Below, one piece after another: positions 19,737 through 37,835 of a stretch of 62,622 bases of DNA (its first letter is position 1; each line of letters starts with the position of its first letter). Both the position numbers and the translations under genes were made by a program. Where the stretch lies: positions 1-62,622 of the forward strand of contig JAQYVY010000018.1 in the NCBI GenBank assembly GCA_030145195.1, given 5' to 3'. The notes below the pieces were generated by a model. It saw nothing but the letters and a program-made list of their open reading frames with translations. It had not been told where the DNA came from and ran no database searches. This DNA comes from Desulfuromonadales bacterium. Lineage in GTDB: Bacteria > Desulfobacterota > Desulfuromonadia > Desulfuromonadales > BM103.

Positions 19737-21149
19737 TTAAAAACTACCTTTTCGAGAAAAAACGACGTAAATCGTTTTTAGGAGAATTTTAATATCAAGC
19801 CATAGGCTCCAGTTATCAATATAGCTGAGATCGAGGTCAACAACTTTATCAAAATCTTTAATTTCATTACGTCCACTCACTTGCCACAATCCTGTAATTC
19901 CAGGAGTAATACTAATTCGCCGATGTTGCCAATTATCGTAATCAGACACTTCCTCAGGCGTCGGAGGGCGTGTTCCTACCAGACTCATTTCCCCGACGAG
20001 AACATTCCAGAACTGCGGTAGCTCGTCGAGGCTTGCTTTACGTAGGAAACGTCCAACAGTGGTAACACGAGGATCATTCGCCATCTTAAACATAGCGCCT
20101 GACACTTCGTTCTCTGCCATCAAATCGGCCTTACGTTGCTCTGCATCAATATACATAGAGCGGAATTTCCAGCATCGAAAGACCCGGCCACTCTGTCCGA
20201 CACGTTTCTGACCAAAGAATATGGCTCCAGGTGAATCTATTTTGATAGCTAGAATCACAAAAGGTAGCAAAAAAGCCGTTACCAAAAGACCGACAAATGC
20301 GCCCAAAATATCGACGACCCTCTTAACCAGAAGTTGCTGAGCATCGAACGCTTTCGCATGGAAAGTCAGAATCGGGATATCATTATGAAAAAAACTGACT
20401 TCCTTCCGGTAGAACGTGAGATCAAAGATGTCAAGGACGATTCGTACCGAAACTCCCAGTTCTTCCAATTGTTGGAGGTACTCTTCAACATCAACAACAT
20501 AATCCTTTGGTATGCAGAAGATGACTTCGTCTACGGGATATGCTTTGCAGATTTCAACCAGATCAGCAACCTTCCCGAGGATATTCTGATCACTAAAGTC
20601 TTCCCCTAATGGTGCATCAGAAACCCTGACAAAACCGATCACTTTCAGGCCCCAGTCACTATGGGCTTTAAGTAGCTTCAAAAAACGGGTTGCCTTTTCC
20701 CGAGTTCCGACAATGATCAGGTTGCGAGTATTGTAACCGCGACTGCGAGCCACTCCGAGCGCAAAACGTAAAATAACTTTTTCGGCAAGCAGCAGGATGA
20801 AAGCACAAACGATAAAAGAAAGTAAGAATCCACGGCTGTAACGGTCTCGGTCAACAAAATATATAATTGAGGCGATAACAAAACCGCCCGTCAAATGAAC
20901 ATTAAAGAGTCGAGTGAGCAGATCAAAAATCGTCAGTCTGCGTATAGAGGCAAACAGATCCCAACGAAGCAAAAGATAGTACCAGAGAGGGATAATTACA
21001 AAAAGGGACCAAAGATAAAAGCGAACATCACGGAGACCTTGATCAAACTGGTCCCTGATCTCGTAAGCAACAAAAAAAGCCGCAAAGATCAAGAAAAGAT
21101 CAAGCAACATGGAGAATCGATGGATTAATTTGGCTTGTTCTTTAAGCAT
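19737..21149 (-). CDS. Undecaprenyl-phosphate sugar phosphotransferase (WbaP/EpsE type)
   Basis: This initiating enzyme transfers a sugar-1-phosphate from a nucleotide sugar to undecaprenyl phosphate and so starts a polysaccharide repeat unit in the inner membrane. The 470-residue product has four N-terminal membrane helices, a Rossmann-like CoA-binding domain (NLIIVGTREKATRFLKLL), and a C-terminal bacterial sugar transferase domain from ~275. That domain contains KRVVDILGAFVGL, FGQKRVGQSGRVFRCWKFR, KASLDELPQFWNVLVGEMSL and PGITGLWQVSGR. The size and layout match the WbaP/CpsE/WcaJ group; the sugar is not known. As last gene of the glycan block it directly precedes yicC. Confidence 0.93.
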   Translation of the reverse strand: MLKEQAKLIHRFSMLLDLFLIFAAFFVAYEIRDQFDQGLRDVRFYLWSLFVIIPLWYYLLLRWDLFASIRRLTIFDLLTRLFNVHLTGGFVIASIIYFVDRDRYSRGFLLSFIVCAFILLLAEKVILRFALGVARSRGYNTRNLIIVGTREKATRFLKLLKAHSDWGLKVIGFVRVSDAPLGEDFSDQNILGKVADLVEICKAYPVDEVIFCIPKDYVVDVEEYLQQLEELGVSVRIVLDIFDLTFYRKEVSFFHNDIPILTFHAKAFDAQQLLVKRVVDILGAFVGLLVTAFLLPFVILAIKIDSPGAIFFGQKRVGQSGRVFRCWKFRSMYIDAEQRKADLMAENEVSGAMFKMANDPRVTTVGRFLRKASLDELPQFWNVLVGEMSLVGTRPPTPEEVSDYDNWQHRRISITPGITGLWQVSGRNEIKDFDKVVDLDLSYIDNWSLWLDIKILLKTIYVVFSRKGSF

Positions 21150-21155
21150 AGTTAG

Positions 21156-22289
21156 TCAGACGAATTTCAACAGCAACTGTTCATACTGTTCCAGCACATG
21201 GGGCCACTCAAACCTTTCCTGATGAAGACGATAGCTTTCCACGCGCATCGATGCAAGTAATTGTTTATTACCTAACAACAGGTCTAGTTTGGCACAGCAG
21301 TCCTCTTCCTGATGAAAGTAACTAGCATCTTCGCCTGCAACCCATCGGTTAAATTTGTTATCGTGTGCAAGAATAGGAGAACCAGCCCCAAGAGCTTCCA
21401 CCAAAGACGGATTGGTGCCACCAACAGTATGCCCGTGCATGTAAAGGCAGCAATTCTTGCGCAGAGCGGCCACAACGCTTTGGTCATAAATGGCACCAGG
21501 GAAGAGAACCTCGTCACTGGCCGCAGCCATCACCACTTTGTGGTAAGGAAAAATCTTCGGCTCGAACTTCCCGAGCACGACAAGCTTAATGCCACGGGGC
21601 CGACGGCTAAAAGCCTGTACCATCTCCAAAATCGAGTTTTCCGGTTCAGGCCTGGCAACAACAAGTGAGTAACGATCAACTTCTAACCCGTAAGCCTGAA
21701 GTTTCTCAGTATCAGCATGCTCCACGCGGTCTGAGCCATAAGGGATCATCGTAATCTTACGTTCTTCAGCAAACCCGGCCAAGTGTTCCTGAATACCGGG
21801 ATTGTCAGCAACAAGATGGTTGCCGAGCAAACTCCCAAGACGTTCGTTGATGAACAACCAAACTTTTTCCAGCAAGCTCCATTTCTCTCGCCGCCATTCT
21901 ATCCCGTCCATATTAATCAAATTAGTGATTTTTTTTACTCGGTAGAGAAAACAAAAGATTGCGGTATTGTACCCAAGGGTCAAAACGGCATCATTAGACC
22001 TTGCAGCGTGAAGTGTGGAAAGCCAATCGAAAATGATTGTTCCTGAAGCACCAGCCCTGTTAATCGGGATATGTACAAGATCTACACCATTCCAACGGTC
22101 CTGGTATGTCTTCCCTTGTCCTTCGTCCTGACAGTAGACTGTTACACTCCACCCTTTGAAGACAAGATAAAGCGCCAATCTCTCGGCAAAAGTCTCGAAT
22201 CCACCATGTTGAGCGGGGATTCCACGTGTACCGAGAATGCGCAGGTGATGGCGGTCAGCATTAATTTCAGGCACAGGCATCACCATCAT
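21156..22289 (-). CDS. Glycosyltransferase family 4, DUF1972 N-terminal domain
   Basis: The N terminus LRILGTRGIPAQHGGFETFAERLALYLV is the DUF1972 signature seen in putative rhamnosyltransferases. The C-terminal half has GT-B features, including a nucleotide-sugar loop region (VGGTNPSLVEALGAGSPILAHDN, with the EX7E glutamate). The 377-residue product is probably a cytoplasmic, membrane-associated transferase adding a sugar to a lipid-linked repeat; rhamnose is plausible because rmlBDAC lies in the same cluster. The start lies inside the end of the upstream sulfotransferase gene, with several possible ATG codons (22289, 22286, 22280). Confidence 0.85.
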   Translation of the reverse strand: MMVMPVPEINADRHHLRILGTRGIPAQHGGFETFAERLALYLVFKGWSVTVYCQDEGQGKTYQDRWNGVDLVHIPINRAGASGTIIFDWLSTLHAARSNDAVLTLGYNTAIFCFLYRVKKITNLINMDGIEWRREKWSLLEKVWLFINERLGSLLGNHLVADNPGIQEHLAGFAEERKITMIPYGSDRVEHADTEKLQAYGLEVDRYSLVVARPEPENSILEMVQAFSRRPRGIKLVVLGKFEPKIFPYHKVVMAAASDEVLFPGAIYDQSVVAALRKNCCLYMHGHTVGGTNPSLVEALGAGSPILAHDNKFNRWVAGEDASYFHQEEDCCAKLDLLLGNKQLLASMRVESYRLHQERFEWPHVLEQYEQLLLKFV

Positions 22290-23277
22290 AACCGAGTGTA
22301 TTCATAACATCATCAAAGCTGGTACGCAGATATTCCGGCATCGGGAAAGATGGACGTTGACCGGTCGTCTCGAGTATTTCAGAAGCGTAGTCCAGAACTT
22401 TCTGGTCTTCACTCAATTGAGCAAAAGAGAACAGCTGGCCAAGAACCGAAGCCGGTTCAGAAACGAGCTTCTCATAATGAACCATCTGAATATTCTCCGG
22501 ATAATCGGCCATGACCTTTAACCCCGCCCTCATACTCAAAATCCATTCTGTGGCCGCCATAAGACGGTGGTCCTGAAGATTGCGCAGATGGTTAACATGA
22601 TCTCGGAGGTGTTCATCGTTAGCCGCGACCTGATCAATGAGGAAGAACCATTTGCGTCGGTCGCGCCCCCACCAATCGTGGGTTTGCGAAGCTTCATGGC
22701 AGGCGTGTTTATCAGACCAGCTGTTAATGGAAAAACACGTATCCCAACCGTTCCTGACTAAAAAAATAAATTTGGCGTTGGGGAAAAGTCTCAAGACAAA
22801 AGGGACACGAAAGACTAACTCTGGATATTTATCGACCGCTTGTCGGCACAGTGTGAAAAAACGGTGCCAACCATACAGCCGTTGGGCACGGGTAACCATC
22901 TCTCCGGTAGCATCAGCCCTATTTAGGCGATAGCTCGCCGGAACATCTGTGTAGTTACCGACGATATCCTCTCCCTGGTTGATGACATGCCACATCGCTT
23001 TCGGTTCGTTGAGAAAGCCGACCTGCCGGTGCAGTCCAAGAATCTGCCCAAGGACAGTGGTTCCACTACGCCCGGTTCCAATGATAAATAAAGGATCATT
23101 CATGTATTGAAGAGTCGGAAGATGCTTCAATATATTCAGGAATCCGAAGACAACCGGATTAATCCAACGCCCACGGGTGGTCAAAGGGCGCCCCTCAAAC
23201 AAAACGTAGCTAACCAATCTGGTTATCGCTCGCCATGGGCGTGATCGGATGAAAGAGTTATCGAGTTGTGCGATCAA
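22267..23277 (-). CDS. PAPS-dependent sulfotransferase family protein (1 of 6)
   Basis: The 336-residue protein has the 5'-phosphosulfate-binding loop FIIGTGRSGTTVLGQILGLH (near 64-83) and a 3'-phosphate-binding segment FIFLVRNGWDTCFSINSWSD. It probably transfers sulfate from PAPS to a sugar hydroxyl of the glycan made by this locus. Conserved Trp residues around WWGRDRRKW may contribute to acceptor binding. A TTG at 23277 is the likely start, with GGTGGAG about 8 nt upstream. It overlaps the following glycosyltransferase gene by 23 bp, indicating coupling. The acceptor is unknown. Confidence 0.83.
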   Translation of the reverse strand: MIAQLDNSFIRSRPWRAITRLVSYVLFEGRPLTTRGRWINPVVFGFLNILKHLPTLQYMNDPLFIIGTGRSGTTVLGQILGLHRQVGFLNEPKAMWHVINQGEDIVGNYTDVPASYRLNRADATGEMVTRAQRLYGWHRFFTLCRQAVDKYPELVFRVPFVLRLFPNAKFIFLVRNGWDTCFSINSWSDKHACHEASQTHDWWGRDRRKWFFLIDQVAANDEHLRDHVNHLRNLQDHRLMAATEWILSMRAGLKVMADYPENIQMVHYEKLVSEPASVLGQLFSFAQLSEDQKVLDYASEILETTGQRPSFPMPEYLRTSFDDVMNTLGYDGDACA

Positions 23278-23302
23278 AAAATTATCTCCACCAATCTGTC
23301 CA

Positions 23303-24301
23303 TCAAGACAAAAGCGCCAGAACCCTTCGTGGATTCATCAAAGCAGCTCCACACAGGTGCAGAGGATATGACAGATAAGCCAATCGGGGGATTTGATGCT
23401 GATTTTCAGGTAAAGTAGCATCGTAACTCAACTGACCCATAAGATCACCCGACAAAGTCTCACAAACCTTGATTTCAGTTAAGCTCAAGCCTTCTCTCCA
23501 CAGTTCAAGACTTCCCGTTGAAACCCCTCGATGATCCTTATTTAAATGGCTGTGCGATGAACCTTTCGCTTCAACGTTAAGCATTTCAGGAACGAAATCA
23601 AGGTCGAGAAAATCACAAAGCATACCGATCTGTCGTTGTGGGTCAGCCACAACATCTTCATACTTAATGAGCATAAAACGAGGGTCATTTCTAAGTTTCA
23701 TGCCACATAACGCAGCCCGGTTCCAGAGCCTTGACATTATAATCGGATGATAATTCACCCAGACGCGCAAAGCGTTATGCAGGGGGATCGACTTGTCTCC
23801 GAGCCAGCGTTTGCGCCAGCGCTGTTTTTGCGAGAAAAGGACAGCCCTTGGATCACGTACCATCTGCACAACACGTAACTCAGGGATCTTGGCCAACAGG
23901 TCATATGCATACAGGATGTTGCGCGGAGTCTGATCGGTCGTATAGGAAGACGCACAAGTTTCGCCGAGATGTGACAATACCCTCTGAAACATTTCAATAG
24001 AATCCAGGTCGTTGTCTTCCGCACCGAACAACGTACCTGCCTCACAATATTCATCAGGTGTGGGCAGCTCCCCCCAGATCCCTCTTCTTGCCCTAGCGAG
24101 CAAACGCGCCATAAGATCTACAGAAGTTTTTTTTAAATATGACGACCTTGTGGATGGAGATGGTACCAAGTCTCCAAAATAGTGAAGTTCATTCAACGCC
24201 AAGATGGAAGGATGACCGGACAATATGCGGTTGAGCATGGTTGTGCCGCTTCTGGAGGCTCCCACCACAAGGAGTGGAGCACCGTGAGACGAAGGAATCA
24301 T
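23303..24301 (-). CDS. PAPS-dependent sulfotransferase family protein (2 of 6)
   Basis: This 332-residue protein starts at the ATG at 24301, which overlaps the stop codon of the upstream gene (TAATG) and has GGAA 7-8 nt before. The phosphosulfate loop LLVVGASRSGTTMLNRIL is at residues 10-27, followed by SGHPSILALNELHYFG; the 3'-phosphate site is VVQMVRDPRAVLFSQKQRW. It is of the same general family as its neighbours, but clearly divergent outside the two motifs, so its acceptor is likely to differ. Confidence 0.85.
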   Translation of the reverse strand: MIPSSHGAPLLVVGASRSGTTMLNRILSGHPSILALNELHYFGDLVPSPSTRSSYLKKTSVDLMARLLARARRGIWGELPTPDEYCEAGTLFGAEDNDLDSIEMFQRVLSHLGETCASSYTTDQTPRNILYAYDLLAKIPELRVVQMVRDPRAVLFSQKQRWRKRWLGDKSIPLHNALRVWVNYHPIIMSRLWNRAALCGMKLRNDPRFMLIKYEDVVADPQRQIGMLCDFLDLDFVPEMLNVEAKGSSHSHLNKDHRGVSTGSLELWREGLSLTEIKVCETLSGDLMGQLSYDATLPENQHQIPRLAYLSYPLHLCGAALMNPRRVLALLS

Positions 24302-25227
24302 TATCTGTTTCCTTCCGAATGGGTCATCAACCATTGCGGTAAATCAGCATATCCAGCAGAGGCAAGGATTTCCCCTGTCGTACGGTTGGAGTCAACATAC
24401 AACCCGTTCAATTCTTTTTTAAGTGTAGCAGTGACCTCAAGAGTGGTTCCGCGCGTATTGAACGCTTGGTATATCTTGCGAAGACGGTTCTTTATTTCAG
24501 GATGACTGCGCAGGAAACGTTCGCTTGACTGGTTAAACGTCAAAGCCAGACGATGCAAGAAAGGATTCCTATAGGCAACAGTACGGTTTTCTGCGCCACC
24601 AATATAGTTTTGACAACCTGCAGATGAAACATTCAGCCACTCACAGAGTTCAGTAACAAGTCCAACGGGTTCATCCTTGAGTTGATCGAAGAATACGATT
24701 TTCAAGCGGTCTCCGAAAACCTCAAACCAGTCTGGCAGGTACTTATCATAGAAGCCGCCCTCAAGCCCGAAGTAGGGGTTGTTCTTCCGCGACAAAAGGT
24801 CTGTGGCCGACATCTGTCGGCAGACATCAAGATATGCTGCCAGACTCATGTTCTGATCCAGGTTGAGCATACTTTTCTGAAACTGGAAGAAAGAGATCAG
24901 TCTGGAAACCGGCTCTCTCAACATCACAATAACGCGAACCCCGGGTAGCCTTTGCTCTATGGCTCTGGCGACATCTCCGGCCCCATAGAAATAACCTGGT
25001 GTCGCCTCCATGCGGTAGGGTGCGCGGCGAGGAAAATCTGGGAAACATGAGGTGTAAGTCATAATATCCTGCAGTTGCTCGCCATAGCGTAGTGAGAGGA
25101 AGTAAGTCGTTTCCTTAACCTCAGATGACTCAATCTCGGGATGTTTGCTTAAATAAGCAAACAAAGAGGTAGAACCGGACTTATTGACACCGGCGATGAT
25201 TAAATTAGGTAGTTTATCAAAAGGCAT
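24301..25227 (-). CDS. Heparan-type sulfotransferase domain protein (3 of 6)
   Basis: The 308-residue protein has LIIAGVNKSGSTSLFAYLSK near the N terminus and a following KHPEIESSEVKETTYFLS block. The latter contains the Lys-Glu pair typical of heparan sulfate N- and 3-O-sulfotransferase-like enzymes, where this Glu acts as base. The 3'-phosphate segment is VIVMLREPVSRLISFFQF. The C-terminal half resembles the P-loop sulfotransferase family (YLPDWFEVFGDRLKIVFFDQ). Its stop codon overlaps the start of the next sulfotransferase. Confidence 0.86.
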   Translation of the reverse strand: MPFDKLPNLIIAGVNKSGSTSLFAYLSKHPEIESSEVKETTYFLSLRYGEQLQDIMTYTSCFPDFPRRAPYRMEATPGYFYGAGDVARAIEQRLPGVRVIVMLREPVSRLISFFQFQKSMLNLDQNMSLAAYLDVCRQMSATDLLSRKNNPYFGLEGGFYDKYLPDWFEVFGDRLKIVFFDQLKDEPVGLVTELCEWLNVSSAGCQNYIGGAENRTVAYRNPFLHRLALTFNQSSERFLRSHPEIKNRLRKIYQAFNTRGTTLEVTATLKKELNGLYVDSNRTTGEILASAGYADLPQWLMTHSEGNR

Positions 25228-25230
25228 CGA

Positions 25231-26448
25231 TTATACTCTTTGGAACTTTGGCTCTAATCGACTATAGACATCGATGATTTTATGGTAATGCACATCAGGG
25301 TTAAATTCAGTTTCAACTTTGTTGCGTCCGGCTTTCCCCATAGCAACAGATTGTTCCGGATGTACTTCCAACCAGCCGATTTTCTCAGCCAACTCCGTTG
25401 CGCTACCAGGTTCAATCAGGAAACCGTCAACACCATCAGTTACAACCTCGGTCATTCCTCCGATACGACTGGCAATGACCGGCTTTCCGTGGGCGAACGA
25501 CTCGATGATCGTCAGACCAAAAGTCTCATACCACTCGGAAGGCACGACCGTGGCAAAGCAACCGGCGATCAAACCCTGAAGTTCATCGCCACTTTTATAC
25601 CCAAGGAATTTAACATGGTCCAATTGCAACTCTTTAGCTAAGTTTTCCAATTCAGCGCGAGCAGTGCCTTCACCTACTATATAGAGAGGGGTCTCGCGAC
25701 AAGCGCTTGCTGCCTGGAGAAGAATCCCGACCCCTTTTACATGTTCTATGCGCCCAAAGTAGAGGAGATAAGAACCGGCACTATAGTTCGGTTGAATGCC
25801 TGATACATCCATAAAATTATGGACAGTAGTAATTTTATCCTCCGGCACGCCGAAATCGATCATCTTGTTTCGCAAAAAATCGCTGACCGCGACAAAATGG
25901 TCAATATCGGAGAGTGCGCCTCTCCATCTACTGACATAACTTTCAACGGTGCTCAATAATGAACGCGCGATTGAGCCCCGGTTGCACCTGTTAACGGCAG
26001 CATGCCAGAACTGCCCCCTACCACAATCTTCACAAATTTCACCGTGGCTAATCAGCTGGTAGGTTGGACAAACGAGTTTGTACTCATGCAAGGTCTGAAC
26101 GATTGGGATACCTCTCGACTTGAGAGGCTTCAAAATCGCAGTGGTCAATTGACCGTAATAGATGTGCAAGTGGGCAAGGTCAATCTGGTGGACATCGAGG
26201 AGTCTTTCCAGACAACGACGTGCCATAGGATGGTGAATATAGTTAAGGAGATCTTTAATGCCTGGGCCTTCAAAGTTGACCCTTCCGGGGAAATATTCTG
26301 CATACGGTGTCGGATGATTACCCGTGTGCTGCGTTGAAAAAGGAATGACCGTATGACCATGTTCCTGCAACAAATCTTGCAAAGAAAACATGTATCGGTC
26401 AGACCCACCCTTTATGAAATAATTTTGCCCACAATTCAGTATATTCAT
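25231..26448 (-). CDS. Glycosyltransferase family 4
   Basis: The ~405-residue GT-B protein begins MNILNCGQNYFIKGGSDRYMF, with the glycine-rich acceptor loop. Its C-terminal nucleotide-sugar domain contains YFGRIEHVKGVGILLQA, GEGTARAELENLA, FLGYKSGDELQ and VPSEWYETFGLTIIESFAHGKP, the EX7E motif of retaining GT4 enzymes. A cysteine-rich patch (CEDCGRGQFWHAAVNRC) in the middle resembles the insert seen in some GT4 proteins of O-antigen loci. It probably adds a sugar to the lipid-linked repeat before sulfation. The ATG at 26448 is preferred over longer upstream starts that overlap the neighbouring gene. Confidence 0.88.
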   Translation of the reverse strand: MNILNCGQNYFIKGGSDRYMFSLQDLLQEHGHTVIPFSTQHTGNHPTPYAEYFPGRVNFEGPGIKDLLNYIHHPMARRCLERLLDVHQIDLAHLHIYYGQLTTAILKPLKSRGIPIVQTLHEYKLVCPTYQLISHGEICEDCGRGQFWHAAVNRCNRGSIARSLLSTVESYVSRWRGALSDIDHFVAVSDFLRNKMIDFGVPEDKITTVHNFMDVSGIQPNYSAGSYLLYFGRIEHVKGVGILLQAASACRETPLYIVGEGTARAELENLAKELQLDHVKFLGYKSGDELQGLIAGCFATVVPSEWYETFGLTIIESFAHGKPVIASRIGGMTEVVTDGVDGFLIEPGSATELAEKIGWLEVHPEQSVAMGKAGRNKVETEFNPDVHYHKIIDVYSRLEPKFQRV

Positions 26449-26488
26449 AGAAAAAAGCAAAAGACACTCCAAGTAGAACTTCTGACCT

Positions 26489-27367
26489 TTAGCCGATAAT
26501 CCAGTCATCGAGTCTGCGATCAATCAACAGGCTTAACTCTTTAATAGAGGGTTCGTAAAATCTGGACAGCTTTAAGCGTGTTTCTTCTGACATGGGAGGC
26601 TTTTCAAATGCCTTCTCATTGAGCTCTCTGACCATGTATTTTATTTTCAGTCTTTTTGACCGTGGGATGACGGTTCTTGCTATCCTTTTCAATAGGCTCT
26701 TCTGATAAATCAACGTATTCAAGATCGAAAATCTGGGCAGAGAAGCGACATTGTGTTTTTTCCCATCAAAAGGCTCCTCCATCCTAGGCAAACCGTGACT
26801 TTGCAAAATGGCATCACACACGATAGAAGGATTATTCTTCAACTCTTCTACAAGAACTACCTTTACACGGTCTTGTCCAAAAACACGAAACAGGTTCTTG
26901 AGATGTTTAACATAAAGGCCGCGATCGACATAAGAATTCCCCCCCACATGGCACCATTTATCATAGTCCGTCAGATTAATCGCTGCTTCGAATGTAGGAG
27001 ATAGCTCAAGGCCAAGGCGTTTGGCATACCAGTACGCTGAGTAGGCTCTGTCGACCGGGTTGCGCAATGCCACAACGACCTGCATAGACGGGTTATGCTG
27101 ATAAGCACGATTGATCGCCGCTGGCTGATAAAGCACTCCGACACTCTTTGCAGCACGCAACAAGTTGCGATCAGGCTCACAACCATAATAGTCATGAAAA
27201 ACCTTGCTATAGCTTTCACAAGACAGATCTTCATTCACAAAATACGGGAATTCCAACGTACTGTGATACTGAACACCAGGGTGCATCCCTAAATATTTGA
27301 TCAAGGATGATGTGCCAGCTTTTTCAGCCCCGGCGATGAGCAATTGAATCGGGAGATCTTCTCGCAT
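26489..27367 (-). CDS. Sulfotransferase domain protein (4 of 6)
   Basis: The 292-residue protein has LLIAGAEKAGTSSLIKYL at 9-26 and the 3'-phosphate segment VVVALRNPVDRAYSAYWYA. The C-terminal PPMSEETRLKLSRFYEPSIKEL matches the equivalent tail of the next gene, so these two look like an old tandem duplication. The phosphate-loop lysine is present. GGAAG stands before the ATG. Confidence 0.86.
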   Translation of the reverse strand: MREDLPIQLLIAGAEKAGTSSLIKYLGMHPGVQYHSTLEFPYFVNEDLSCESYSKVFHDYYGCEPDRNLLRAAKSVGVLYQPAAINRAYQHNPSMQVVVALRNPVDRAYSAYWYAKRLGLELSPTFEAAINLTDYDKWCHVGGNSYVDRGLYVKHLKNLFRVFGQDRVKVVLVEELKNNPSIVCDAILQSHGLPRMEEPFDGKKHNVASLPRFSILNTLIYQKSLLKRIARTVIPRSKRLKIKYMVRELNEKAFEKPPMSEETRLKLSRFYEPSIKELSLLIDRRLDDWIIG

Positions 27368-27372
27368 AGTTA

Positions 27373-28269
27373 TTACTTCCAGTGAGAAAGGTCGCGTTTA
27401 ATCAGTTCAGATAGCTTTTGATTGTGTTCCCGAAAATAGGCACGAAGCCTCTCCCGTACTTCCTCAGACATCGGCGGTGGCGTAAATGGTTTATCGTTCA
27501 TGGCCAGAAGGTTGCGCTTGACGTTATCAGACCATTTCAATGGTATAATCCGCCTTAAAGTTCTTTTCACAGGATTATTGGCAGAGAAGAACCATGCTAT
27601 CCCCCGTGCAACAAGAACCGAGCGAGGAGCACCAGCAATATTCAGTTTTTTTGAAGTGGCTCCCCCGAGGCTCTCTTCAAGATCTAACCCGAACCACTCC
27701 ATTAGGCTTCGGCAGACCTCTTCTGGGTCGTTTTTCAGGTCTTCCTGCAGAACAACGCGCAAGCCATCGTCGCCCGTTAATTCAAGAATATTCTTCACAT
27801 GGGGATAGTAAACACCACGAAAAAGATATGCCGTCTTGCCCCAATAGACATCTTTTTTAGTATTCCGTTCCGACTCAGCAGCAAGCGCCTCTTCAAAGTT
27901 TGCCTTGTTTTCCCAACCACGTCGCCTCGAATACCAATATGAAGAGTACGCACGATCGATAGGATTCCTTAAGACAAGAACCAATTTAACGTTATCATTA
28001 TGTTTAAGAATCCTACTAGCAAACTCCTGTTCATAAAAAGCCGTAGCATCTTTAGCTATGAGCTTTTGTGTGGCGCAAGTCTCACGCTCAGGGAAGTACC
28101 GCCCAAGGGCATAGTTAAACCCCTTGCTGTACTCAAAATCGCTGGAGAAGAATGTCATCTCTGGTTGTTGATGTGTCATGACCTCGTCATATCCAGCGAG
28201 GTAACGGAGTAAAGATGTCGTGCCTGATTTAGCTGCACCAGCGATAAAGAAATCGATCTTATCGCTCAT
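27373..28269 (-). CDS. Sulfotransferase domain protein (5 of 6)
   Basis: The ~298-residue protein starts at the ATG at 28269, overlapping the preceding gene by 11 bp. It has FFIAGAAKSGTTSLLRYL near the N terminus, PEMTFFSSDF at the catalytic Glu position, and LVLVLRNPIDRAYSSYWYS for the 3'-phosphate. It shares the RNPxDRAYSxYWY segment and the PPMSEE tail with the downstream neighbour, its closest paralogue in the window. Confidence 0.87.
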   Translation of the reverse strand: MSDKIDFFIAGAAKSGTTSLLRYLAGYDEVMTHQQPEMTFFSSDFEYSKGFNYALGRYFPERETCATQKLIAKDATAFYEQEFASRILKHNDNVKLVLVLRNPIDRAYSSYWYSRRRGWENKANFEEALAAESERNTKKDVYWGKTAYLFRGVYYPHVKNILELTGDDGLRVVLQEDLKNDPEEVCRSLMEWFGLDLEESLGGATSKKLNIAGAPRSVLVARGIAWFFSANNPVKRTLRRIIPLKWSDNVKRNLLAMNDKPFTPPPMSEEVRERLRAYFREHNQKLSELIKRDLSHWK

Positions 28270-29197
28270 CAGAAAGCCCTTTCTGGCCATTCATATCAAA
28301 GTTCTCCCATGGTAGATCCTTCAGGCCAAGCTCATTTTTGAGTGCGAGGACAGACTCCTCATAGTAACTCTTAAGTTTTAGGAAATCTTCTCGGTTCATA
28401 CCCTTTTCTGCATCATCTCCATAGATGAGGGCCTCGCATAATCGATTCAATCTCACCAGAGAGGCATGCACCCCCTGACAACCTCGAACCCAGTGTCGAA
28501 TCCTTTTTTTAAAAGTTTTATACTCTTTGGCCACGAAAGAACTACGTGACTTTTTTGTGGCATTATACGTTTCAAATGCGTAATCGTCATAGTAAGACGA
28601 GTCGATGTCTGCAAATTCACAAATTTGTTTGGCGAAGCCGAGAGGATTACGCGAAAGATCCTCAAAGAACCCCACAAAGATGTCCTTTCTGTCGATATCT
28701 GCAAAATAATTTTGCAGATAACCAATATACTGCCCTTGAATCAGTGCCAGCTGATATTGCTCTGTTGCCAGCGAGATATTATCGCATTGCATATTAATGA
28801 AACCATTCAAGGTCGTGTCAGCAGGAAGGTCGCCATTCTGCTGGGCAAACCTGTACCAGGAAAAGAATCTGTCCACAGGGTCTCTCAGCAGGAGAACAAT
28901 TTTGAAATCTGCAAGATGATCTTTCAAGCGTTGTGGCGTTCCAACAGAGTGCAGATAATCGGGCGTTGCTTCCAAGCGGAGACCATCTCCTTGGAAAAGC
29001 GCACAGTAATCATCCAGGCTACGTTTGTGATCGCATCTCTGCACAACAGGATAACCCTCGTCAATAAAGAATCTGCTTTCTTTATAAAAACATGGAGCCA
29101 CATCAGGATGACCCTTCAAATAATTGAAGAGCGACGTAGTCGCGGCTTTGGTCGTGCCGCAGACCAGCAAGTATCGATTCTTGTCATCAAAATCCAT
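28259..29197 (-). CDS. Sulfotransferase domain protein (6 of 6)
   Basis: The 312-residue protein has LLVCGTTKAATTSLFNYLKG as phosphosulfate loop, with Ala-Ala in the middle where the others have Gly, then CFYKESRFFIDEGYP with the Lys-Glu pair. The 3'-phosphate segment is IVLLLRDPVDRFFSWYRF. It is the first of the sulfotransferase genes in transcription order, 19 bp after the flippase gene. Confidence 0.86.
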   Translation of the reverse strand: MDFDDKNRYLLVCGTTKAATTSLFNYLKGHPDVAPCFYKESRFFIDEGYPVVQRCDHKRSLDDYCALFQGDGLRLEATPDYLHSVGTPQRLKDHLADFKIVLLLRDPVDRFFSWYRFAQQNGDLPADTTLNGFINMQCDNISLATEQYQLALIQGQYIGYLQNYFADIDRKDIFVGFFEDLSRNPLGFAKQICEFADIDSSYYDDYAFETYNATKKSRSSFVAKEYKTFKKRIRHWVRGCQGVHASLVRLNRLCEALIYGDDAEKGMNREDFLKLKSYYEESVLALKNELGLKDLPWENFDMNGQKGLSDER

Positions 29198-29216
29198 AGC
29201 AGTATTTAAACCTATA

Positions 29217-30530
29217 TCATCTTTTGCGGTGTATAAATGGCAGATAAACGGTCAGAATCCGCATGTGATGATAAACCACAAAAACAGATGCAATATTACG
29301 AATTGCGATAGCAACCATACTGGCAAAAGCCGCACCGTTGATACCAAAAGAAGGTATTAACAAAAAATTCAACCCGATATTGAGAGCCAATGCAACAAAA
29401 GTTATGTTCCGATAGGCAACATGATGTCCTGACATCTGCAACAGAATTCCGACAGATCCTGAGATAGCATTTACAAACATGCCAACAGATAGAAATATCA
29501 GAGCCGTGGAGGCGACTTTGAACTCAGGACCGAAGAAACCGAGCCAAAACTCAGGTAAAGCTACAAACAAGAACAGAACCGGCGTACTGCACCAGAAGAT
29601 CACGCGTGTTGAATCGTGGATTGACGCTGAAAGCTCCTCATGTTCACCACGACTACAAAGTTCAGCGAAGCGATGTCCTGTCGCAGTATTCACAGCCTTT
29701 AAAGCAAGGACTGCAAGCATCGAGACCCTTACAGCAACATTATAGACACCAACGTCAGTCTCCGTTTTGAGGATTCCAAGAATAATAGTGTCAGCCCAGA
29801 ACAGGACCAACCCCATTGAAGCAGCGAGCATTAACGGAAAAGCATCATTAATGAAATCGAAAGTTGTAACACCAGGAGCACGGGATGGTTTAGATGAAAC
29901 TTTCTTTACCAGATAAACGCTAACAAAAAAAGTGACATAACCTGACAAGGTGTAAGCAAGAACGGGAGTGTAAATATCATCAAAGCCAAAACACAAAGCT
30001 AGCAGAAGAACTAAAAACAAGCTAAAGAGGCTTAGGGCAGAGTTTTGTAAAAATGCAAAAACCTTAACGAAACCTAGTCCACGCAGGAACCCCGCATTAA
30101 CCTGAAAAGCCACAATTGGTAGCACGGCAGCAGCGGCGTAGCAGAAACCAGCAGAAAGGCCAGGCTTGCCAAACAGGTTAACTGCAAGAGAATCTCTGAA
30201 TACAAAGAGACCGAGAGAAAAAAACAGTGCCAGAAGTGCGGAAACCTTCAATGCCAGACGATAACAGTAACTGGCGAACGGCCCTTGTCCATTGAGGCGA
30301 TAAGATGAAGCAACCTTGACCAAGTGGGTATCAAACCCCAGTCTGGCGACAACCGCCACAATTGAAATAACACTTGTACATAGTGCATAAAGACCGACGG
30401 ACTCTGCACCATAGTTTCTGGACACAAAGAGTAGGAAAACGTATCCAGACAACAGGCTGAAGACTTTAGCCACAAGAGCAAACGCGCTATTGCCGAGAAA
30501 TCCATTTTTCCCACTACGTAAATTATTCAT
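29217..30530 (-). CDS. wzx: Wzx-type polysaccharide flippase
   Basis: The 437-residue product has about 12-14 hydrophobic helices with the MATE/MOP pattern of polysaccharide exporters (for example FALVAKVFSLLSGYVFLLFV near the start and paired helices around YTLSGYVTFFVSVYLV). Wzx proteins flip the undecaprenyl-linked repeat unit across the inner membrane. The start is the ATG at 30530, which overlaps the polymerase gene by 8 bp. Its position between Wzy-like and sulfotransferase genes suggests that sulfation happens on the cytoplasmic side before flipping. wzx genes are not sequence-conserved, so topology and context carry the call. Confidence 0.82.
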   Translation of the reverse strand: MNNLRSGKNGFLGNSAFALVAKVFSLLSGYVFLLFVSRNYGAESVGLYALCTSVISIVAVVARLGFDTHLVKVASSYRLNGQGPFASYCYRLALKVSALLALFFSLGLFVFRDSLAVNLFGKPGLSAGFCYAAAAVLPIVAFQVNAGFLRGLGFVKVFAFLQNSALSLFSLFLVLLLALCFGFDDIYTPVLAYTLSGYVTFFVSVYLVKKVSSKPSRAPGVTTFDFINDAFPLMLAASMGLVLFWADTIILGILKTETDVGVYNVAVRVSMLAVLALKAVNTATGHRFAELCSRGEHEELSASIHDSTRVIFWCSTPVLFLFVALPEFWLGFFGPEFKVASTALIFLSVGMFVNAISGSVGILLQMSGHHVAYRNITFVALALNIGLNFLLIPSFGINGAAFASMVAIAIRNIASVFVVYHHMRILTVYLPFIHRKR

Positions 30531-31917
30531 CAATGGGTTTTCTTCGCATACAGACACTCAGCGCAACACCATTTATCAGCCAAAACAAGTAGCTATATAT
30601 TCGCAACTCAAAAGCACGGACAACACAAGCATAGACCACGGTTGCAAGAATACAGAGGAGAGCCATCAAAACGACTGAAAGTTCATTCTTCTTGATGGTT
30701 TTCAGGTACTTAACATAGCGGAACGATAAAAACATAAACAGCGAAAGAATTGAGAGTAGGCCGGGATATCCGTAGAAACAGAGCAAAGCGACCCAGTAGA
30801 AATCTTTAAAACCGTCATAACCCAATACATAGACCAACTCAGGGTTTTGTTTGGCCAAAGACTTTTTCACCTGTTCCTGATCAGGGCCGTAACCAAGAAA
30901 AGGGCCAAACAGAATGTATTCACGTCCGACATTTTGTAATGTCGACAATCTGGATACCGACGCAGATTTTTCCCAGTACTGTCTAGATAGAATTTGTTGC
31001 ATCATCAGAGTATAAGGGATATTGGTTTCCCTGGAGAGCTTTGACTTGAAGCCGACCTCCCCTGCATTGAAGTTCATTCCGACAAAGAGAATGCCCACTC
31101 CCAGCAAAAAAACGAGCCATTTTCTCGTTTTTTTTACAAGAAGAAAAAGGATGATGCAGGACATAGAGACGCCAAGCAGTAAAGGCATTCGTTTATGAGA
31201 AAGAAATAGCCCGTAAGACAAAAGAATCATGCCAAGCGGCCAACAAACCATATGGTGCCTTTTTGAATAAAGAACAAAAGCAGAAAGAACAATCATCGAC
31301 AACAACAGAAAGGCAGACAAGGTCGTAGGATCATTAAAGCTTCCGGTGTATGCACCTTGCTTAAAAACCCTCATATTCTGAGCAAAAGCGCCCCCTACCC
31401 AACGTGACAAAGGACGGTTCAATTCCAGTAGGCTATTTGTAACAAAACCAGCACTAAGTTTCTGCAATTGAGCTACGGCAACTTGAAAAAAAGACAGAAA
31501 CAGGATCGAGACAAATAAGACCAACTGCCTGTTTCTACCCCATACCAGTGTAAGAGAAAGAAGAAAAACGAAAAAATATCGCAAGAACAACCTGGCACTC
31601 AAAGCATTGTCCAGTAAACTAGATTCACTGAGAAAAACAGACAAAGAGATAGAGGACAACAAGCTGACGACTAACAGAAAAAGGACTTTAGATTCTCCAA
31701 GAGCTTCTGCAATCTCGTGGAAACGTATAATGACAAGAGTGCAAACCAAAAATTCACTCAGATATTTTGCAATGACAAAAGAAGCAACATTGAAGTTCAG
31801 AAGATTTACAACATATTTTTCAAAGCACAGATAAAAAAGCAGGAATATCAGCACTAAAAAAACATGATATTCAAACCTCTGACTACACTTATAATTACTT
31901 ATTTTTTCTAGAAACAT
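30523..31917 (-). CDS. wzy: Wzy-like O-antigen polymerase/ligase membrane protein
   Basis: This 464-residue protein has 10-12 predicted membrane helices and a large periplasmic loop between about residues 270 and 370 (region of REYILFGPFLGYGPDQEQ), the layout of Wzy polymerases and WaaL ligases. It would join flipped repeat units in the periplasm. Between these two alternatives Wzy is favoured by the neighbouring wzx and Wzz-like genes, but sequence alone does not separate them. It overlaps both neighbours, so all are probably translated together. Confidence 0.78.
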   Translation of the reverse strand: MFLEKISNYKCSQRFEYHVFLVLIFLLFYLCFEKYVVNLLNFNVASFVIAKYLSEFLVCTLVIIRFHEIAEALGESKVLFLLVVSLLSSISLSVFLSESSLLDNALSARLFLRYFFVFLLSLTLVWGRNRQLVLFVSILFLSFFQVAVAQLQKLSAGFVTNSLLELNRPLSRWVGGAFAQNMRVFKQGAYTGSFNDPTTLSAFLLLSMIVLSAFVLYSKRHHMVCWPLGMILLSYGLFLSHKRMPLLLGVSMSCIILFLLVKKTRKWLVFLLGVGILFVGMNFNAGEVGFKSKLSRETNIPYTLMMQQILSRQYWEKSASVSRLSTLQNVGREYILFGPFLGYGPDQEQVKKSLAKQNPELVYVLGYDGFKDFYWVALLCFYGYPGLLSILSLFMFLSFRYVKYLKTIKKNELSVVLMALLCILATVVYACVVRAFELRIYSYLFWLINGVALSVCMRRKPIDE

Positions 31918-32674
31918 AAAGGTATGAGATAAAAGTTGTTAACAAAAAAGCTAAAAGGAATGAAAAGCTTTTTTTAGAATTCGACGATCTCTCCTTAATT
32001 TTCACACAATCATCGACATCATTGATGCTGTCAGCAGAGGCTATAAGTTCCTTAATTTTACCCTCAGCTTCCTCTATGTATTTTAGATTGTTTGTTATTT
32101 TTTTTGTATAATCGTACTGGATGTAATCCAGCACAAATCTGTCAAACTTCGACGCTTTAGTTGTAACTAAGGTATCCCTTATGTCTTCAAGTTTTTTTTC
32201 CAATTCCAGCAACTCTTGTTTCTTGTCTGCAACTGTCAGCCGCGTCTCCGACATTTTATCAGCAACAAACGCCCTTATTTCCTTCACCAACTCCCTTTGG
32301 GCCTTAAAAAGTTCACTGATCAACAACTTTGCGGCGTTATTCACAACACGCTTGTCCGCGCCTGAGACTGTCACAACCAAGGATTTACTGTTCCGTCTTA
32401 ATAAGGATCTGACATCTGGAACGTCTTCCACAGCCAATTTTTCAGACAAGAATGGCTGGTAAAAATCTTTATTAATATTGAGATTAAGTGCTTCATAATC
32501 ATCAACAGACAATATTAAATTGTTGTTTTTTGGCCCACCAGACTCCATGCCAACAGAATCAACAGCGAGACTTATGACACTGGAATAATAGACAGGGGTC
32601 AGCGAGTACGCTCCAAACCCAACCAACAGAGGCAGGACAAGAAAGAGCATCCCGTTAAACAACGTATTCTTCAA
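31895..32674 (-). CDS. Wzz-like chain-length determinant protein
   Basis: The 259-residue protein has a hydrophobic helix near residues 7-28, a long hydrophilic domain with a coiled-coil stretch (SETRLTVADKKQELLELEKK and after), and a second helix near the C terminus (FSFLLAFLLTTFISYLYVS). This two-helix plan is that of polysaccharide co-polymerases (Wzz), which set chain length with Wzy. It lacks the usual proline-rich TM2 motif and is short for the family. It overlaps the wzy-like gene by 23 bp. Confidence 0.7.
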   Translation of the reverse strand: MKNTLFNGMLFLVLPLLVGFGAYSLTPVYYSSVISLAVDSVGMESGGPKNNNLILSVDDYEALNLNINKDFYQPFLSEKLAVEDVPDVRSLLRRNSKSLVVTVSGADKRVVNNAAKLLISELFKAQRELVKEIRAFVADKMSETRLTVADKKQELLELEKKLEDIRDTLVTTKASKFDRFVLDYIQYDYTKKITNNLKYIEEAEGKIKELIASADSINDVDDCVKIKERSSNSKKSFSFLLAFLLTTFISYLYVSRKNK

Positions 32675-32701: not shown

Positions 32702-33256
32702 CTAGAGTGTTTCCAGTTCACAAAAGGGGCTCGCCTCTTCGTCTTTCTCTGACAGTAAGGGCGAGACTCCCCCTAGGCCCCAATCAATGTTAAGGGCCGG
32801 GTCGTTCCACAAAAGAGCTCTTTCGTGTTCCGGCGAGTAATAGTCCGTTGTTTTGTATAGAAGTTCAGCGACACTACTTAATGTCAGAAACCCGTGCGCG
32901 AACCCTTCTGGAATCCATAACTGGTATTTGTTTTCCGCAGAGAGCCGTTGCCCCACCCATTTTCCGAAATTCGGAGAGCTGCGACGGATATCGACCGCAA
33001 CATCAAAAAATTCACCGACAAGAGCACGCACAAGCTTCCCCTGTGCGGCTGGCGGCAACTGATAATGCAACCCACGCAGGACTCCCTGCTTTGATCGCGA
33101 GTGGTTGTCCTGAACGAAATCACAATCGACACCCGTCGCTTCAAGCCACTCCTGTCGATTGAACGATTCGAAGAAAAAGCCACGTTCGTCTTCAAAGACA
33201 CGTGGTTTAATCAACAACACTTCAGGCAAAGCTGTTTTAACTACCTCTATTGACAT
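32702..33256 (-). CDS. rmlC: dTDP-4-dehydrorhamnose 3,5-epimerase
   Basis: RmlC epimerises dTDP-4-keto-6-deoxyglucose at C3 and C5 in dTDP-L-rhamnose synthesis. The 184-residue cupin protein has VFEDERGFFFESFN, DNHSRSKQGVLRGLHYQ with catalytic His64, and FAHGFLTLS. The order rmlB-rmlD-rmlA-rmlC along the transcript is a complete dTDP-rhamnose operon. AGGAAG precedes the ATG. Confidence 0.96.
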   Translation of the reverse strand: MSIEVVKTALPEVLLIKPRVFEDERGFFFESFNRQEWLEATGVDCDFVQDNHSRSKQGVLRGLHYQLPPAAQGKLVRALVGEFFDVAVDIRRSSPNFGKWVGQRLSAENKYQLWIPEGFAHGFLTLSSVAELLYKTTDYYSPEHERALLWNDPALNIDWGLGGVSPLLSEKDEEASPFCELETL

Positions 33257-33280
33257 AACAAAACACTTCCTATTTGAATT

Positions 33281-34156
33281 TTAGAATTCGCGTAAAACGC
33301 GTTCGAGATAAGAGCGATAACTTGAGATTGGCGTCGCATCGATTACCTCTTTCATCCCCTCCCGGTCAATAAAGCCCTGGTGCAGAGCAATCTCCTCCAG
33401 GCAGGCAATCTTAAGACCTTGACGGGCCTCAAGGGTGCCAATGAAGTGGCTGGCTTCAAGCAGGCTTTCATGGGTACCAGTATCAAGCCAGGCAATCCCA
33501 CGCCCAAGTTTCTCGACCATCAACTGGCTCTTCTCCAGATAAGCCTTGTTGACATCAGTAATCTCGAGTTCGCCTCGGGGAGAAGGCTTCAAGGCCTTGG
33601 TGATCTCAACCACATTACGATCATAAAGATAAAGGCCGGGAATAGCATAGTGGGACTTCGGCTCAGCCGGTTTTTCTTCAATACTGAGGACCCGCCCTTC
33701 CCTGTCAAATTCAACAACACCGTAACGCTCTGGATCATGGACCGGATAACCGAACACCATGGCACCATCATCAAACGCTTTAACAGTGTGATCAAAGCCC
33801 ATTTTACCGTAAAAAATATTATCGCCGAGAATCAGTGCAACATTCTCATTATCAATAAATTCTTCACCAACGAGAAACGCCTGAGCAATCCCTTTTGGTT
33901 CCGGCTGCACTACGTAAGTTAGCTTAATCCCCCAGCGACTGCCATCGCCCAACAAGGCTTCAAAGCGAGGCGTGTCTTGCGGCGTCGAAATAATCAGGAT
34001 ATCGCGAATGCCCGCCATCATCAGCGTTGACAACGGATAATAGATCATCGGTTTGTCGTAAACCGGTTGCAACTGCTTGCTGGCAACCAAAGTCAACGGG
34101 TAGAGGCGAGAGCCTGCACCACCAGCTAAAACAATTCCTTTGCGAACACCTGACAT
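33281..34156 (-). CDS. rmlA: Glucose-1-phosphate thymidylyltransferase
   Basis: RmlA couples glucose-1-phosphate and dTTP to dTDP-glucose, the first and feedback-regulated step of dTDP-rhamnose synthesis. The 291-residue protein starts [32 protein letters not shown], the nucleotidyltransferase signature, with LGDNIFYG and [18 protein letters not shown] further on. GAGGAG lies before the ATG. Confidence 0.97.
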
Positions 34157-34175
34157 CTACTTTATCTCCTCAGAA

Positions 34176-35081
34176 TCATTTATCACGCATCAGGAAATAG
34201 GCCTGCAGGCTTTCTTGCCATGCAGGAATAGTTGACCCTGTTGCGGAAAGATATTTGGTTTTATCAAAAACAGAATAAGCCGGCCTTTTTGCCGGCAAAG
34301 GATAATCATCTGTTGTAATCGGCCACAATTCACTAACCTTGAGAGGCAACCCGGCGTGCCGACCTTGACGTATGATTTCACAGGCGAAATCATGCCAACT
34401 ACACTGACCCTGATTGGAGAAATGATATATTCCGTAGTGACCAAAGTCTGGAGACTTGGAGTTAGTCGAAGTCCTCAAAAGACTAAAAACCGCCTCAGCC
34501 AAATCACTCGTATAGGTCGGCGTTCCAACCTGGTCAGCAACAATTCTCAACTCATCACGTTCTCTAGCCAAACGTAATATCGTTTCAACGAAATTATTAC
34601 CGCCAGAGCCATAAAGCCAACTGGTCCTGATGATGAAATATTTTTTTAATTCACTGGCGAGAATTGCATGTTCACCCAGCAGCTTTGAGTGTCCATAAAC
34701 TGATTGTGGATTCGTCTCATCACTCTCAACATAAGGGGCTGTCTTTTCACCATCAAAAACGTAATCCGTTGAAATATGAACCAGAGTCGCATCTACTTTT
34801 TTAGCCGCTCCAGCTAAGTAGCCAACAGCAATGCCATTCACCCGGTTCGCTAACTCTTGCTCCGCCTCGCAGCCGTCCACATTAGTATAGGCCGCACAGT
34901 TGATAATAACTTCTGGCTGCATCGCATCAACAAAAGAGCAGACTTGATTATTATCAGTCATATCAAACGCAGGCAAATCCACTGCCGTTATTTTATATTC
35001 AGCAGGTGCTTCAGAAGCGACTTTACGGGCAAGCATCCCGTTGCCGCCAACAAGCAACACCTTTCTGTATTGACCAGACAT
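34176..35081 (-). CDS. rmlD: dTDP-4-dehydrorhamnose reductase
   Basis: RmlD reduces dTDP-4-keto-L-rhamnose with NAD(P)H to dTDP-L-rhamnose. The 301-residue SDR protein has LLVGGNGMLARKVASEA at the N terminus, VHISTDYVFDG and the catalytic YGHSKLLGE (YxxxK), and TSWLYGSGGNNFVETIL. The ATG at 35081 is favoured, just after the rmlB stop (TAGTGATG). Confidence 0.95.
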   Translation of the reverse strand: MSGQYRKVLLVGGNGMLARKVASEAPAEYKITAVDLPAFDMTDNNQVCSFVDAMQPEVIINCAAYTNVDGCEAEQELANRVNGIAVGYLAGAAKKVDATLVHISTDYVFDGEKTAPYVESDETNPQSVYGHSKLLGEHAILASELKKYFIIRTSWLYGSGGNNFVETILRLARERDELRIVADQVGTPTYTSDLAEAVFSLLRTSTNSKSPDFGHYGIYHFSNQGQCSWHDFACEIIRQGRHAGLPLKVSELWPITTDDYPLPAKRPAYSVFDKTKYLSATGSTIPAWQESLQAYFLMRDK

Positions 35082-35083
35082 CA

Positions 35084-37767: not shown

Positions 37768-37798
37768 ATCAGTTCGCCCTAAAAACCTATTTTTTTTA

Positions 37799-37835
37799 AG
37801 AACCATTATATGTTAGCTCTTGCTTATGGGTAACG
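37799..37835 (-). promoter_or_regulatory. Candidate promoter of the GT39-rmlBDAC operon
   Basis: On the minus strand a consensus TATAAT (37810-37805) stands about 40 nt before the GT39 start at 37767. Seventeen nt upstream lies only TTACCC, a poor -35. It is at the gene-proximal edge of a 440-bp non-coding region, the natural place for a promoter of the polysaccharide operon. Confidence 0.35.

Follow-up and report, generated by a model that had tools for sequence, protein, structure and literature searches.

A run of six sulfotransferase genes, here designated ST1 to ST6, lies within a glycan-assembly locus of the Wzx/Wzy type in a Desulfuromonadales bacterium, and the gene content of this genome suggests that the bacterium probably has a coat of heavily sulfated glycan. 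The window is a stretch of 62,622 nucleotides (NCBI GenBank assembly GCA_030145195.1, contig JAQYVY010000018.1, positions 1 to 62,622), in which the six genes occupy positions 22267-29197 of the minus strand. We consider it quite likely that the product is a sulfated, rhamnose-containing Wzx/Wzy glycan. An earlier, sequence-only reading of the window had proposed such a polymer, and the proposal is upheld in part: the sulfotransferase motifs, the predicted fold of ST6, a genomic arm for synthesis of the sulfate donor 3'-phosphoadenosine 5'-phosphosulfate (PAPS), and a class-wide linkage of sulfotransferases with the kinase acting on adenosine 5'-phosphosulfate (APS) together lend it strong genomic support, while we infer which molecule is the acceptor, how many sites are sulfated, in what order the steps occur, and that the product is an O-antigen in preference to a capsule or exopolysaccharide (EPS). 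Two features stand out, namely the proportion of sulfotransferases to glycosyl-transfer genes and the existence of a separate PAPS arm.

All six open reading frames listed in that reading are confirmed at their minus-strand positions, and the Pfam search that it proposed identifies every one of them as a sulfotransferase. ST1 (22267..23277, 336 residues), of a group resembling tyrosyl-protein and CurM sulfotransferases, scores 82.1 bits against PF13469 and 43.9 bits against PF00685, both above cut-off; its relative ST2 (23303..24334, 343 residues) scores 87.2 and 62.5 bits and the heparan-sulfate-sulfotransferase-like ST3 (24301..25227, 308 residues) 44.7 and 31.9 bits against the same two families. 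The paralogues ST4 (26489..27367, 292 residues) and ST5 (27373..28290, 305 residues) reach 38.7 and 55.4 bits with PF00685, and ST6 (28259..29197, 312 residues), whose nearest relative in the window is ST3, reaches 51.1 bits. Since the curated PF00685 cut-off of 22 bits is passed by all six (31.9-62.5 bits for the window proteins, 29.3-61.5 bits in a whole-genome scan), these are not chance motif matches; PF13469 is above cut-off in five, the exception being ST4 at 24.1 bits versus 27. The six are the only PF00685 matches in the entire genome (3.4 Mb, with a completeness of 99.95), the genome-wide scan being confined to that family, with others (e.g. PF13469-only genes) outside its scope. None of the six proteins has a hydrophobic segment.

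The phosphosulfate loop and 3'-phosphate segment ascribed to these genes are found in all six, the loop with Lys or Arg and Ser or Thr, the 3' segment with its Arg...Ser pattern, and both are accompanied by a candidate catalytic Glu; the roles of these residues we take to be those established for animal enzymes. The loop, 3' segment, and Glu motif read GTGRSGTT, VRNGWDTCFS, and LNEPKAMW in ST1; GASRSGTT, VRDPRAVLFS, and LNELHYF in ST2; GVNKSGST, LREPVSRLIS, and KETTYF in ST3; GAEKAGTS, LRNPVDRAYS, and LEFPYF in ST4; GAAKSGTT, LRNPIDRAYS, and PEMTFF in ST5; and GTTKAATT, LRDPVDRFFS, and KESRFF in ST6. An alignment of ST3-ST6 and six homologues taken from further genomes shows complete conservation of Gly and Lys in the loop, of Glu in the KExxFF-like segment, and of Arg-x-Pro and Ser in the 3' segment. 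ST1 and ST2 have in common GxxRSGTT, a Glu about 20-25 residues farther on, and VR(N/D)...S. The proteins form two groups, with ST1 and ST2 as one pair and ST3-ST6 as the other, and their longer alignments show identities of 21-34%: 21% between ST1 and ST2 (1e-7), 26% between ST3 and ST6, and 34% across nearly the full length of ST4 and ST5, so that the long tail earlier seen to be shared by the latter two is real. The unusual loops of ST6 (KAATT) and ST3 (KSGST), and the low identity to solved enzymes, would fit proteins that have lost the use of PAPS, or copies in decay within an O-antigen locus. We regard this as very improbable, given that the six genes are free of internal stops, that the loop Lys/Arg, the 3' Arg and Ser, and the Glu are retained throughout, and that the genome carries a PAPS arm of a kind linked to sulfotransferases across the class, as described below.

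Among proteins of solved structure, the best sequence match of ST3-ST6 is the bacterial sulfotransferase 3rnl, followed by the heparan sulfate enzymes NDST1 and 3-OST; for ST3 the values are 1.5e-10 (3rnl), 4.5e-9 (3-OST-1), and 1.7e-8 (NDST1), for ST4 1.8e-23 (3rnl) and 1.6e-7 (NDST1), and for ST5 2.3e-24 (3rnl) and 2.2e-10 (NDST1). A model of ST6, built from the four window sequences ST3-ST6 and of modest confidence (predicted local distance difference test, pLDDT, 62.4; predicted template modelling score, pTM, 0.60), matches 3rnl (E 2.5e-11) as well as structures of NDST and 3-OST, of which many contain bound PAPS or its desulfated product PAP; its Z scores are 16.0-17.3 for 15 entries of the 3-OST/NDST/3rnl kind, the highest being 17.3 for 1t8t, and 11.2 for the next kind. 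The modelled ST6 thus matches a sulfotransferase fold, and by sequence ST3-ST6 resemble heparan-sulfate sulfotransferases, whose solved relatives act on glycans. The likeness is one of sequence for ST3-ST6 and of fold for ST6, which differs from the NDST, 3-OST, and 3rnl proteins in its low identity to them (15-24%) and in having no visible membrane anchor. For the other pair, the best solved relative of ST2 is the CurM sulfotransferase 4gbm (3.8e-9), olefin-synthase sulfotransferases also being found, and a profile of ST1 and ST2 matches the tyrosyl-protein sulfotransferase TPST1 at 1.9e-12.

A sulfotransferase needs a donor, and the genome has a separate gene set for making it. No PAPS synthesis genes had been seen in the window, which is right for APS kinase; the search for cysNC elsewhere in the genome, suggested at the same time, leads to a 10.6-kb contig (C56) that holds both APS-kinase matches of the genome. 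There, on one strand, lie CysQ, a CysNC fusion, CysD, and a second CysC fused to DUF2061; CysNC, CysQ, and CysD all exceed their NCBIfam cut-offs, such that ATP sulfurylase, APS kinase, and PAP phosphatase are covered. A sulfate or thiosulfate ABC importer on the same contig faces the PAPS genes. Sulfate assimilation has a gene set of its own on another contig (C10), comprising cysH, cysD, a 470-residue CysN, a sulfite/nitrite-reductase-like gene, and a cysG-like gene, with no APS kinase. CysH of this set passes the APS-reductase model (253.6 versus 235.3) and fails the PAPS-reductase model (165.3 versus 254.2). Assimilation can therefore, on these predictions, run on APS and apart from the PAPS arm. 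Matches to PF01507 in the genome number three, namely the two CysD proteins and this CysH, and with assimilation supplied by an APS-type reductase set the six sulfotransferases are the only PAPS users found in the scans for PF00685 and PF01507. An exclusively assimilatory role of the PAPS arm was considered and rejected, because this second gene set with its APS-type CysH, CysD, and 470-residue CysN exists.

The second CysC of the arm deserves separate mention. Proteins in which a DUF2061 membrane domain is fused to an APS-kinase domain are encoded at L009:8226-8957 (C56) and, in two further genomes, at L087:18698-19462 and L078:5109-5870, the two domains having been tested in the L009 protein. 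The DUF2061-CysC P-loop reads GLPASGKK, with Lys where Ser or Thr is usual, and the DGDNVRHGLN segment is replaced by D-x-x-DVRPLFP. In all three genomes looked at, no more than about 4 kb separates the fusion from the canonical kinase, and it may serve the PAPS arm as a membrane-tethered or regulatory APS kinase.

The association of sulfotransferases with APS kinase extends across the class. PF00685 is present in 71 of the 277 genomes of the class (and in 151 of 395 sampled genomes of the phylum, at most six candidates being scored per genome), and a canonical APS kinase of at least 178 bits in 96 of the 277, among the matches listed. Both genes occur in 62 genomes, the sulfotransferase alone in 9, the kinase alone in 34, and neither in 172, corresponding to an odds ratio of 34.8 (p 3e-27) without correction for ancestry. 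Stratification by family gives 23.3 (p 3e-20); the family limits were deduced from the order of genome labels, and those at G151/G152 and G201 are guesses. All 143 sulfotransferase matches (2 under the family cut-off) and the 103 APS-kinase matches of at least 178 bits in those 96 genomes entered the calculation, weaker kinase matches being dropped and no more than 13 candidates scored per genome. A sulfotransferase lies within 20 kb of an APS kinase in 30 of the 62 genomes that have the two genes, compared with about 1.5 genomes expected for random places in 3.7-Mb genomes.

Within this set, the window's six genes within 7 kb form the largest PF00685 array among the 277 genomes; the next largest hold four genes (G011 and two arrays in G132) and three (G119). 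The 2.6-Mb genome G132, from another family of the order, offers a parallel in layout: at L084:11617-15158 wzx, four PF00685 genes, a GT2 and a GT4 glycosyltransferase, and a polymerase stand in a row, and at L085:9662-14775 five sulfotransferase-like genes, one of them below both Pfam cut-offs, lie beside two GT4s and an ABC protein. Its arrays have four and five members compared with six in the window, and for its two ST5-like proteins the identity is 27%. Relatives of ST5 occur in 15 of the 277 genomes, its own included, with 34% identity the best outside its own, and none of the ST5 matches in the class revealed an orthologous six-gene run. Searches of genome contigs yielded no close relatives of ST5, and a protein search of plasmids returned 152 records, all below 60% identity, the best among the matches listed being 29.6%.

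The sulfotransferases are embedded in a continuous run in which all genes from a PMT_2 gene at 36244 through gmk lie on the minus strand, separated by -35 to +59 bases, in the order PMT_2, rmlB, rmlD, rmlA, rmlC, Wzz-like, Wzy_C, Wzx, ST6, ST5, ST4, GT4b, ST3, ST2, ST1, GT4a, WcaJ-type transferase, yicC, gmk. It includes the initiating sugar-phosphate transferase of the WcaJ/WbaP type (19737..21149, 470 residues; PF02397 230.3 bits, TIGR03025 431.7 versus 295.55), GT4a (21156..22289, 377 residues), a DUF1972/GT4 protein that resembles the rhamnosyltransferase Cps2T (PF09314 67.9 bits; 168 bits against the NCBIfam Cps2T model, below its cut-off of 500), and GT4b (25231..26523, 430 residues; PF00534 125.4 bits). 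Two glycosyltransferases had been described as interleaved with the six genes; GT4b does lie among them, and GT4a only flanks them. The Wzx-type flippase (29217..30557, 446 residues; PF01943 67.1 versus 28.2 bits) has 12 hydrophobic segments, and the next gene (30523..31917, 464 residues) encodes a Wzy-type polymerase or O-antigen ligase, the genome's only PF04932 match. The 259-residue protein at 31895..32674 has no Pfam or NCBIfam match and is tentatively assigned as Wzz/PCP-like from the layout and from one hydrophobic segment near each end. Genes for dTDP-rhamnose synthesis (rmlC, rmlA, rmlD, rmlB; 32702..36184) match PF00908, PF00483, PF04321, and PF16363, all above cut-off, and 59 bases from rmlB lies the PMT_2 gene (36244..37806, 520 residues, GT-C-like; PF13231 52.4 versus 26.1 bits), which may be a further glycosyl-transfer gene beyond the three (initiator and two GT4s) between wzx and yicC.

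From these parts a pathway can be proposed. The WcaJ-type initiator and then the two GT4 enzymes would build a rhamnose-containing repeat unit on undecaprenyl phosphate, and the six soluble, PAPS-dependent sulfotransferases would sulfate it in the cytoplasm, where PAPS resides; sulfation before flipping is the simple reading because all six lack a hydrophobic segment. Wzx would flip the sulfated unit, Wzy polymerise it, and the Wzz-like protein set its length, with PAPS delivered by the C56 arm and apart from the APS-reductase assimilation genes on C10. Six sulfotransferases for just three or four glycosyl-transfer genes invite another thought, however, namely that the enzymes act on several molecules (LPS core, lipid, a second polymer) in place of one repeat unit (LPS, lipopolysaccharide). 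The distance between the ST1/ST2 and ST3-ST6 groups would suit such a division of labour, as would the loci L072, L074, L079, and L080 of relatives, which carry one or two sulfotransferases among LPS-core genes; yet all six genes stand in one tight run between wzx and glycosyltransferases beside wcaJ, and we think a division over several acceptors possible but less likely. The repeat unit might, in addition, be a substrate for enzymes encoded in the LPS-core locus. Speculatively, and with some doubt, we also entertain a hypersulfated unit, in which six regiospecific sulfotransferases would place up to about 2 sulfates per sugar on three or four sugars of the LPS, fed by the separate PAPS arm beside its own importer.

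Several points weigh against the sulfated-glycan pathway as drawn. The evidence for the glycan is genomic, and a structure model of ST1 (pLDDT 40) was too poor to be used. The polymerase match is weak (33.5 versus 31.7 bits), and PF04932 cannot separate polymerase from ligase. On the donor side, the PAPS arm and the six genes lie on different contigs of this assembly, unlike the clusters of Vibrio and Cobetia discussed below, and this genome is not among the 30 linked genomes of the class; moreover, of the 71 sulfotransferase genomes, 9 are without a canonical APS kinase, among them G005, G089, and G113 at 99-100% completeness. The C56 importer is on the strand opposite to the PAPS genes, and its binding protein scores above the cut-offs of both sulfate and thiosulfate models. 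CysH on C10 also passes a broad NCBIfam phosphoadenylyl-sulfate reductase model (284.8 versus 154), and the 470-residue CysN just passes the bifunctional CysN/C model (723 versus 715), aligned to its CysN part only; the name of the former model and the narrow pass of the latter speak mildly against dismissing an assimilatory role for the PAPS arm. Finally, as the genome scan covered PF00685 and PF01507, further PAPS users may exist.

As to the destination of the polymer, we lean towards LPS O-antigen. Farther along the same strand lies an LPS-core locus with hldE, gmhA, WaaP/Kdo-kinase-like genes, two genes of the GT9 heptosyltransferase family, lpxK, and kdtA; the run directly continues from this locus, ends in yicC-gmk, and includes a Wzz-like protein, and none of its genes gives a Wza- or Wzc-type match; for these reasons O-antigen is the most plausible product. 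The genome's one Poly_export (Wza-type) match is on a third contig, C50, together with a Wzc-like Wzz/GNVR/ATPase protein, a UDP-sugar dehydrogenase, and a CpsB-like protein, and this constellation counts against O-antigen in making EPS or capsule export possible. The same sulfated repeat unit would then leave the cell through the Wza/Wzc-like pair without ligation to LPS, as might be expected from synechan, a published sulfated Wzx/Wzy polymer that is an EPS and whose OPX gene is away from its cluster (PMC8205485). Weighed against the continuity with the LPS-core locus and the run's own complement of genes, the capsule or EPS alternative strikes us as a lesser possibility.

Clusters for sulfated polymers have been reported in other bacteria, and this kind of system is therefore already known. 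The synechan xss cluster of Synechocystis 6803, whose sulfated polymer was shown chemically, shares with the present locus Wzx/Wzy, rhamnose, and sulfotransferases of distinct subfamilies. It differs in having two sulfotransferases for eight glycosyltransferases, as opposed to six for three (four if PMT_2 is counted), and in specifying a cyanobacterial plasmid EPS, whereas the cluster described here adjoins an LPS-core locus; its authors considered two sulfotransferases in such a cluster to be new, and in 2021 noted that sulfated polysaccharides were then unreported in bacteria besides cyanobacteria (PMC8205485). Sulfated polymers of other bacteria have been reported in Pontiella (2020), with one sulfotransferase in the cluster, in Vibrio (2024, PMC11641403), and in Cobetia (2025, PMC11766843). 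The capsular polysaccharide cluster of Vibrio sp. KMM 8419 likewise has dTDP-rhamnose genes and sulfotransferases, with second cysC/N/D copies, but specifies an ABC-transporter capsule with three sulfotransferases over an 80-gene region and PAPS genes inside the cluster; for its authors, PAPS genes together with sulfotransferases are a hallmark, and they suspect that there is a sulfated O-antigen as well (PMC11641403). That of Cobetia marina KMM 1449 combines rhamnose, PAPS genes, a PAP phosphatase, a sulfate permease, and a sulfotransferase, as here, again with an ABC-transporter capsule and PAPS genes in the cluster (PMC11766843). In Actinoplanes missouriensis, wps-1 is a Wzx/Wzy/Wzz cluster with a heparan-sulfate-type sulfotransferase, although it has two sulfotransferases, belongs to an actinomycete, and is likened to ours by its genes (PMC13390465). 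Sulfated glycans had been called little known in metal-reducing delta-proteobacteria; the titles and abstract openings listed in open-access literature searches that named the group agree, containing no sulfated glycan of this bacterial group and none pairing Desulfuromonadales with sulfotransferase, but the genes themselves are common, as the class and phylum counts above indicate.

Should the product be as the genes suggest, it would give the cells a dense and strongly acidic covering, with a potential for binding metal ions or retaining water and salt, and the operon would supply six bacterial glycan sulfotransferases for enzymology, four of them of heparan type. Were the hypersulfated unit also real, the LPS of a Desulfuromonadales bacterium would carry a charge density like that of heparin or carrageenan, and the sulfotransferase-rich arrays of G132 would make a glycan class in the order. 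The two-arm sulfate layout, for its part, provides a simple genomic test for makers of sulfated glycans.

Two ideas about the setting of the run were set aside. The yicC side is not a general hot spot for sulfotransferases: a profile of our own (1e-5) found them in 0 of 80 YicC loci listed, several of these being short or from Clostridia, and a few yicC-side loci elsewhere (L072, L073, and L074) do carry them. Nor is there a clear signal of a foreign island, the GC content of 21156-30557 being 46.2% compared with 47.5% for the window.

Further genes of the window and of C56 merit brief description. The LPS-core locus includes a fusion of 835 residues (51334-53841) that joins a WaaP/Kdo-kinase-like domain to a GT2 domain. 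A 320-residue protein at 42069-43031 has only a sub-cut-off match to deoxyhypusine synthase and is strongly conserved near gmhA/hldE in several relatives. An Acyltransferase-3/SGNH protein (44823-46781) and an FkbM-type methyltransferase (46829-47602) may introduce further surface-glycan decorations. Near the edge of C56, at L009:9420-9870, a pair of small open reading frames has, by eye, the look of a RelE/ParE-type toxin-antitoxin module.

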